Positions 53,628-55,055 of a stretch of DNA of 64,000 nt are shown here, piece after piece. The stretch covers positions 3,152,501 to 3,216,500 of the forward strand of contig NZ_CP058214.1 in assembly GCF_015482775.1 (NCBI RefSeq), given 5' to 3'. Numbering within the stretch: position 1 is the stretch's first letter; the number at the start of each line of letters is the position of its first letter. The notes under the pieces are model-generated. The model saw only the letters and a list, made by a program, of their open reading frames with translations. It was not told the origin of the DNA and did not search any database. The translations under genes and the position numbers were made by a program. Origin of the DNA: Kaustia mangrovi. GTDB lineage: Bacteria; Pseudomonadota; Alphaproteobacteria; Rhizobiales; Im1.

Positions 53628-54086
53628 CTACGCGATCCTGTCCGGCAGGCCGCGCCCGTTATTCCACCACCGGTTCGGATTGTCGCTCCCCGGATTGTAG
53701 GCTGCCCGGCTCGCCCAGTCCTCGCGCAGAAAGATGACCGGCTCCTCGTAGTGGTGGACATGGAGGATCGCGTCCATGACCGCTTCCAGGACGGAGAGGT
53801 CGCGTTCGATGGAGATCTTCAGCTCCACCATCGGGTAGGTTTCCGTGCTGCCCGCCTCGAAGCCGCCGACATGCGTCGTCGTGGTCGAGCCTGGCTCGGG
53901 CTGCGATGTCTCCTTGCCGAGCGCGGAGATGCTCGCATTGCGCTGGTAGCGCCCGAAGGAAAGCGGGTGCACCTCCATGACCGCATCGAGAATCCGGTCC
54001 GTGTCCTCCGGCAGTGTCTGAATTTCGAGCGTCCAGACGGGAACGAATGTTCCCGATCTTGCCTGATAACCTTCCAGAACGGACAT
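53628..54086 (-). CDS. Unrecognised 152-residue protein behind a LexA box
   Basis: I do not recognise the family. The soluble protein starts at ATG 54086 (AGGGAG upstream) and appears to have two alpha/beta halves: 'VPVWTLEIQTLPEDTDRILDAVMEV' and 'YPMVELKISIERDLSVLEAVMDAILHVHHYEEPVIFLRE' (shown in part). The repeated strand-helix pattern and 'HHYEEP' recall CutA/PII-like and NIF3-type ferredoxin-like folds, where an HPYEEP motif occurs. The C-terminus is Trp/Asn-rich ('NPNRWWNNGRGLPDRI'). The perfect SOS box 20 bp upstream of the start suggests DNA-damage induction. Confidence 0.75.
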   Translation of the reverse strand: MSVLEGYQARSGTFVPVWTLEIQTLPEDTDRILDAVMEVHPLSFGRYQRNASISALGKETSQPEPGSTTTTHVGGFEAGSTETYPMVELKISIERDLSVLEAVMDAILHVHHYEEPVIFLREDWASRAAYNPGSDNPNRWWNNGRGLPDRIA

Positions 54087-54106
54087 GGATAGGCTCCCTG
54101 TAGAAT

Positions 54107-54121
54107 GTTCTCTTTTTGTTC
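54107..54121 (-). promoter_or_regulatory. LexA (SOS) box
   Basis: GTTCTCTTTTTGTTC is a perfect match to the alphaproteobacterial LexA site GTTC-N7-GTTC. On the minus strand it lies between a consensus -35 (TTGACA, 54143-54138) and the start of the unrecognised gene at 54086, covering the expected -10 region, where a repressor would block transcription. Confidence 0.75.
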
Positions 54122-54197: not shown

Positions 54198-55055
54198 TCA
54201 CTCCGGCACCATGCGGCGGATACCGGTGACATTGCCGTAGAGGCGGGCGATGCGGTCGACGGCCTCGTGCAGCGGCTCGATCACCACCTGCATGTGGTGG
54301 CCGTTGGCGTGAAGAAACCGCTCGCCGTCGACCATCAGGCCGACATGGCCCTTCCAGAAGACGAGATCGCCGCGGTGGAGCGCGGCGAAACCGTGCGCGT
54401 CGACCGGCACGCCGAGGGCGGCCTCCTGCATGTCGCTGTCGCGCGGGCAGGGATGGCCCGCGGCATGGAGCGCGAGCTGGACGAGGCCCGAACAGTCGAC
54501 CCCCGTAAACCCCTTGCCGCCCCACAGATAGGGAACATGGAGCAGCGTTTCCGCGACGGCGACATAGTCCTGCGCATAGTCGCGCAAAGGCCGCACATGG
54601 CGGGCATAGACATAGCGCCCGTCGGCCAGCACGGCGAAGGGGCCCTCGGTGCCGGCAATGGCGAGCCGCGCATTGAGCCCGACACCCGTGACGGGCTGCG
54701 ACTTCACGTCCGGCTGCGGATAGAGGAAGGTGCGAGGCACGCTCACGCGGTGGGTTGCCGGCTGGGCCTCCGGCGCGAGGCTGCCCGCGCGTGCATAGCC
54801 GACATAGCCGTCCTCCTCGATCTGGACCCAGGCCCAGCCGTCGCGCTCGTCGAAGACGCGCACGCGCTCGCCCATCAGCGCCTCGGTCAGGAGCGCGGCG
54901 TCGGGCTCGGGCCTGCGCCTCAGGCCGAGAGCGGGCGCGATGACATGATAGCTCTGGCCCTCCACGAAGCGTTCGGCCGGCACCCGGCCCCGGAGCCAGG
55001 CGGCGGCCAGATCGGGGCGGTAGGGATGGAGGCGCGGATCGGGCGCATTGGTCAT
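54198..55055 (-). CDS. NlpC/P60-family peptidoglycan endopeptidase with SH3 domains
   Basis: The 285-residue protein has bacterial SH3-like regions (residues ~35-95 and ~100-155) followed by an NlpC/P60 domain with catalytic Cys in 'GVDCSGLVQLAL', His in 'FWKGHVGLMV' and a third polar residue near 'FLHANGHHM'. Such enzymes cleave gamma-D-Glu-diaminopimelate bonds in muropeptides. No signal peptide is visible, so it is probably cytoplasmic and used in cell-wall recycling. Its start overlaps the marR stop (ATGA at 55052-55055). Confidence 0.9.
   Translation of the reverse strand: MTNAPDPRLHPYRPDLAAAWLRGRVPAERFVEGQSYHVIAPALGLRRRPEPDAALLTEALMGERVRVFDERDGWAWVQIEEDGYVGYARAGSLAPEAQPATHRVSVPRTFLYPQPDVKSQPVTGVGLNARLAIAGTEGPFAVLADGRYVYARHVRPLRDYAQDYVAVAETLLHVPYLWGGKGFTGVDCSGLVQLALHAAGHPCPRDSDMQEAALGVPVDAHGFAALHRGDLVFWKGHVGLMVDGERFLHANGHHMQVVIEPLHEAVDRIARLYGNVTGIRRMVPE

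Follow-up and report, generated by a model that had tools for sequence, protein, structure and literature searches.

Does a gene of no recognizable family that starts just behind a perfect LexA operator belong to the SOS regulon, and if so, what might its product do? The question was raised by an initial annotation of the window (the whole 64-kb stretch of DNA analyzed here), which described an unrecognized 152-residue gene with an HHYEEP motif, preceded by a perfect LexA box 20 bp before its start codon and, just upstream of the box, by a consensus TTGACA −35 element. All of these elements were found in place. The 152-aa frame, herein P0001, contains the HHYEEP motif and starts at an ATG that is common to orthologs 70–88% identical over their full length, the edge of the LexA box lies 20 bp from this ATG, and, if a 17-bp spacing from TTGACA is assumed, the −10 position overlaps the box. 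In the order in which they follow each other on the minus strand, the features of the locus are the following:

54198–55055, minus strand: upstream neighbor, NlpC/P60-like by inspection; genomic context, not part of the system
54143–54138, minus strand: TTGACA, candidate −35 element a short distance before the LexA box
54121–54107, minus strand: LexA box, GAACAAAAAGAGAAC on the gene strand and GTTCTCTTTTTGTTC on the plus strand
54099–54094, minus strand: AGGGAG, candidate ribosome-binding site of the P0001 gene, read directly
54086–53628, minus strand: P0001 gene (ATG at 54086, stop codon at 53628–53630), encoding a predicted 152-aa stand-alone PII-like (NIF3/YqfO-insert-like) protein, as assigned from the translation, the orthologs and AlphaFold2

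The window alone proves little, because chance would yield the motif GTTCN7GTTC about once in 64 kb (one match against 1.16 expected, which is not significant by itself). Across the host genome, which encodes LexA (TIGR00498), the same pattern occurs in excess, with 99 matches compared to 41 for the reversed control pattern, and the resulting list was inspected one site at a time. One box is located 107 bp upstream of lexA and two lie between ssb and uvrA. The 15-mer of the P0001 promoter recurs once elsewhere in the genome. This second copy precedes a cluster in which an HhH-GPD gene comes first and genes for an ImuB-like Y-family protein and for DnaE2 come behind it, and the two promoters have the stretch AATGTTCTCTTTTTGTTC in common. 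In this cluster, imuA was not identified, and the intervening frame had no Pfam match. The host dnaE2 (G000:C1 about 1354345–1357136; L177:3346–6137) is split over two frames that meet near L177:5172, reflecting either a frameshift or an assembly error. LexA-type boxes were also observed upstream of genes for a radical-SAM protein and an AlkZ-like DNA glycosylase (L109, G000:C1:1041209; L111, G000:C1:1267604), as well as upstream of a small frame that is RelE-like by inspection only (L115, G000:C1:3360955) and is possibly an SOS-linked toxin gene.

Promoters of the orthologs

Conservation of the box was assessed in 84 deduplicated ortholog loci, which were chosen by similarity to the query and not randomly; the percentages given here cover close relatives only. 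The exact GAACN7GAAC motif is present within 150 bp upstream of the gene in 21 of these loci, 75-fold above the mean of 0.28 (maximum 3) obtained in dinucleotide shuffles, and among half-site spacings of 3 to 13, none except 7 was enriched. The boxes are positioned 30–44 bp upstream of the ATG, with a TTGAC-like element ~17–21 bp before the box in many orthologs. A survey of the class added two further box-bearing matches, both from one genus, one of which has an upstream sequence identical to that of locus L052. The proposal that orthologs would keep the box held for these 21 loci but not for the many orthologs from which it is absent. Large box-less groups have another damage-linked arrangement, being located behind dnaE2, behind mmcB, or next to a palindrome of the WYL type.

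In nine Tateyamaria loci, the ortholog starts ~10 bp past the stop codon of dnaE2 (NF004225, error-prone DNA polymerase), and the dnaE2 promoter carries a one-mismatch box in all six loci that were read further upstream, five of them with GAACAAAAAGTGAAT and the sixth with GAACAAAATATGAAT. In two other loci (L030 and L062), the ortholog lies downstream of an MmcB-like gene (PF06319) and the exact boxes are GTTCACGTATTGTTC and GTTCATCATTTGTTC. According to the relevant portion of PMC9578287, MmcB is an SOS-regulated nuclease that protects Caulobacter from mitomycin C. The operator of the Caulobacter SOS regulon as given there (GTTCN7GTTC; imuABC, mmcA, mmcB) is the same as that found here, and the P0001 relatives are placed with dnaE2 and mmcB; a P0001-type gene was not found among the Caulobacter SOS genes named in that portion. 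When the exact boxes are combined with the dnaE2 and mmcB operons, LexA-type control is apparent in 32 of the 84 loci. As judged from promoter sequences, LexA is the most frequent single identified promoter class among the orthologs. Overall, we consider the P0001 box significant because the host has LexA and boxes at lexA, ssb/uvrA and the AlkZ-like gene, because the same 15-mer is found at the HhH-GPD/imuB/dnaE2 cluster, because the exact box is retained so far above the shuffled expectation, and because LexA-type boxes also precede the dnaE2 and mmcB genes behind which the ortholog is located elsewhere in the family tree.

A second type of wiring involves the exact palindrome CTGACAN6TGTCAG, which was identified in 12 of the 84 ortholog loci (0.006 in shuffles), often with a divergent gene for an HTH_11-WYL regulator adjoining the palindrome-bearing ortholog. 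Additional loci have either a variant of the palindrome or a WYL regulator without it. The palindrome and the LexA box were found together in none of the 84. Two other matches from the class survey and a distant HSYQEP subfamily also carry the palindrome, which is absent from the host genome. In six genomes surveyed for this motif (G135, G197, G671, G330 and those of L069 and L074; loci L158–L174), where the control pattern yielded no matches, the palindrome is located upstream of uvrB in two (L159 and L165), upstream of a methyladenine glycosylase gene (L174), and at promoters of genes for WYL regulators, glyoxalase/Ble-like and PNPOx-like proteins, and EamA, LysE and MFS transporters. The WYL regulators DriD and PafBC answer to ssDNA (PMC12340889, PMC11804915). 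The likeness to these systems consists in the palindrome adjoining a WYL regulator in some orthologs and recurring at uvrB and the methyladenine glycosylase gene, whereas the regulators beside the palindrome differ in being smaller proteins of the HTH_11-WYL kind, which by inspection are YafY-type. Judging from its member genes, the palindrome regulon of alphaproteobacteria is a possible SOS-independent damage regulon; it is apparently undescribed, as a brief literature search found no published account of a CTGACAN6TGTCAG regulon.

In about 40% of the close orthologs, the upstream sequence that was read contains neither of the two damage-type promoters. In Pseudovibrio (L007, L022, L032, L033, L034 and L038), the ortholog is located behind a gene for a 62-aa, apparently membrane-spanning protein, upstream of which no exact LexA box was found, with weak one-mismatch matches in some loci. 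In Ruegeria, the neighbors are ArsR-like and EamA-like. Such orthologs suggest a wider stress or export role.

Predicted fold and relation to known proteins

Direct searches with the P0001 sequence against Pfam (E up to 10), NCBIfam, PHROGs and PDB sequences produced no useful match. An alignment of 35 relatives retains L42, G45, Y47, G57, H111, P116 and the NPxRxWN signature, and the corresponding profile matched the insert of Bacillus cereus YqfO (2gx8) with an E value of 0.0044. For the AlphaFold2 model of P0001 (mean pLDDT 90.6, pTM 0.83), Foldseek ranked 2gx8 first (E 5.9e-6), and VIA-align superimposed the two with a Z score of 11.6 over 99 residues, followed by the PII-like CPII, SA1388 and CutA1. 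Given that the NIF3 domain (PF01784) was not matched in P0001 at E up to 10, and with a protein of only 152 aa, P0001 is predicted to be a stand-alone PII-like domain with the fold of the NIF3/YqfO insert, not NIF3 itself. The structure prediction called for by the initial annotation points to the insert alone, and the guess of a NIF3/CutA-like fold appears to have been right at the level of the fold.

Comparison with the inserts of B. cereus YqfO and Staphylococcus aureus SA1388 (2nyd, 3lnl; Z 9.6–9.7) shows the same predicted fold and the shared motifs G-x-Y, G....P and H-x-Y-E-E/T-P, whereas P0001 is a stand-alone protein with NPNRWWN as its C-terminal tail and with about 13–18% identity to these domains. 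CutA1 and PII/GlnK are alike in having the ferredoxin-like fold (Z about 9), but P0001 matched neither the CutA1 profile (PF03091), which 6 of the 35 family members matched weakly (best E 0.015), nor the Pfam profile of the P-II family (GlnB/GlnK). Two features of stand-alone YqfO-like PII proteins, the YqfO insert as the closest fold and an H-x-Y-E-E-P-like motif, are both found in P0001. Among the stand-alone COG3323/YqfO-like proteins, Pseudomonas syringae YqfO03 (103 aa), as described in PMC6321441, is likewise a free-standing NIF3-insert-like domain, from which P0001 differs in its tail and its 152-aa length. In the portions of the published accounts at hand (PMC6321441 and PMC8469502), no link between COG3323/YqfO-like proteins and the SOS response was found.

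Proposed role and its rivals

The best explanation of these observations, to which we assign a probability of roughly 0.7, is that P0001 is a LexA-repressed, undescribed PII-like damage-response protein of the host SOS regulon. The suggestion that the gene is SOS-repressed and encodes an undescribed damage-response factor is supported by the ortholog boxes and the dnaE2/mmcB operons. At the sequence level, the SOS wiring has good support, and LexA repression with induction by damage is highly probable; a molecular role as a ligand-binding adaptor or sequestering protein is what we infer from the fold and the context. LexA would bind GAACN7GAAC over the −10/start region and block transcription of P0001, and its self-cleavage upon DNA damage would allow P0001 to be expressed together with the imuB/dnaE2 cluster, uvrA, ssb and the AlkZ-like glycosylase. 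As a free-standing domain of the PII-like (ferredoxin-like) type, the product would be akin to the NIF3/YqfO regulatory insert and CutA1 and, by analogy, probably trimeric, and a trimeric ligand-binding protein is the form that we somewhat favor. Most likely, P0001 would contribute to genotoxin tolerance as a small protein that binds a ligand, in which the conserved loop G-x-Y...G-x-E-T, the turn H-x-Y-E-E-P and the C-terminal tail NPNRWWN may contact a small molecule or a partner. Alongside MmcB, DnaE2 and excision repair, it would be expected to act by sequestration or as an adaptor and not as an enzyme; a specific role in the tolerance of crosslinks or bulky lesions is tentative. We see about an even chance that the new stand-alone PII-like family as a whole is a genuine DNA-damage effector, repeatedly wired through LexA, dnaE2/mmcB or a WYL-type, SOS-independent damage regulon, and that by binding a damage-related ligand or a partner in repair it helps cells to tolerate crosslinks or bulky lesions.

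The main rival is a broader genotoxin/electrophile defense, to which the recurrence of ArsR, EamA and glyoxalase contexts points. P0001 would then be mainly a detoxification or xenobiotic-response protein that binds or sequesters an electrophile, drug or metal, with SOS as one of several stress promoters. Some relatives indeed adjoin ArsR-type regulators, EamA exporters and PNPOx-like proteins, glyoxalase/Ble-like proteins along with EamA, LysE and MFS transporters belong to the palindrome regulon, and Pfam names CutA1 a divalent-ion tolerance protein. However, the commonest identified promoter class is LexA, accompanied by the dnaE2 and mmcB operons and by apparent co-regulation with uvrB and the methyladenine glycosylase gene, every one of which concerns DNA damage, and this alternative is therefore rather unlikely, although it is the most credible of those considered.

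The remaining alternatives fare worse. SOS regulons often include small checkpoint inhibitors, and P0001 could be such a checkpoint-induced DNA mimic or inhibitor of replication or cell division; however, its compact predicted PII-like fold, its strongly conserved motif set and its location in repair operons, not with division genes, render this improbable. Still less probable is a chance match, with P0001 free of LexA control in the host: although about one such motif is expected in 64 kb, this one has a promoter placement, is identical to the operator of the imuB/dnaE2 cluster and recurs among the orthologs well beyond the shuffles. We rejected, as the least probable of all, the possibility that P0001 serves a separate NIF3 (DUF34) hexameric toroid as a detached lid that is inducible by damage, comparable to the PII-like domains of SA1388/YqfO. 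The predicted fold is that of the NIF3 insert, and stand-alone COG3323 proteins are described as co-occurring with a NIF3 protein (PMC8469502, section 3.6); P0001 carriers differ from this pattern as given in that section, in that PF01784 (DUF34_NIF3) was matched neither in the host nor in 17 other carrier genomes (18 in total), while a control search run alongside was positive in 10 of 14 genomes.

Converging regulatory evidence of this extent is seldom available for damage-response genes of unknown function. If a ligand-binding domain of the PII-like type belongs to an SOS regulon, damage tolerance would be tied to small-molecule sensing, and the presence of the same gene under either LexA or a WYL-associated palindrome offers a direct test of damage-regulon rewiring.

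Distribution and origin

The gene is rare, with a close ortholog in 7 of 297 genomes of the order and a match at E ≤ 1e-30 in 5 of 385 genomes of the class (the host included in both), and close relatives (70–88% identity) are patchy across alphaproteobacteria. The tree of this short protein is weakly resolved (7 of 80 branches starred); the promoter states are interleaved on it, but its support is too weak for a count of independent LexA wirings. In relatives, the NlpC/P60-like gene is kept with MarR-like and aminopeptidase-like genes, P0001 being located at the end of the block. The aminopeptidase-marR-nlpC block is also present in three genomes of the same family, but without a P0001 gene beside it, which is consistent with gain of the gene in the host lineage. 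A phage origin was rejected, with no match in phage records, and plasmid matches were confined to three records, all annotated as hypothetical and non-mobilizable. The P0001 family appears from sequence comparison to be wider than its SOS branch. In loci L019, L024, L040, L043, L056 and L070, we variously observed paralogs with NPNKFWNR-like tails, an ArsR-like regulator or an EamA-like exporter upstream of the ortholog.
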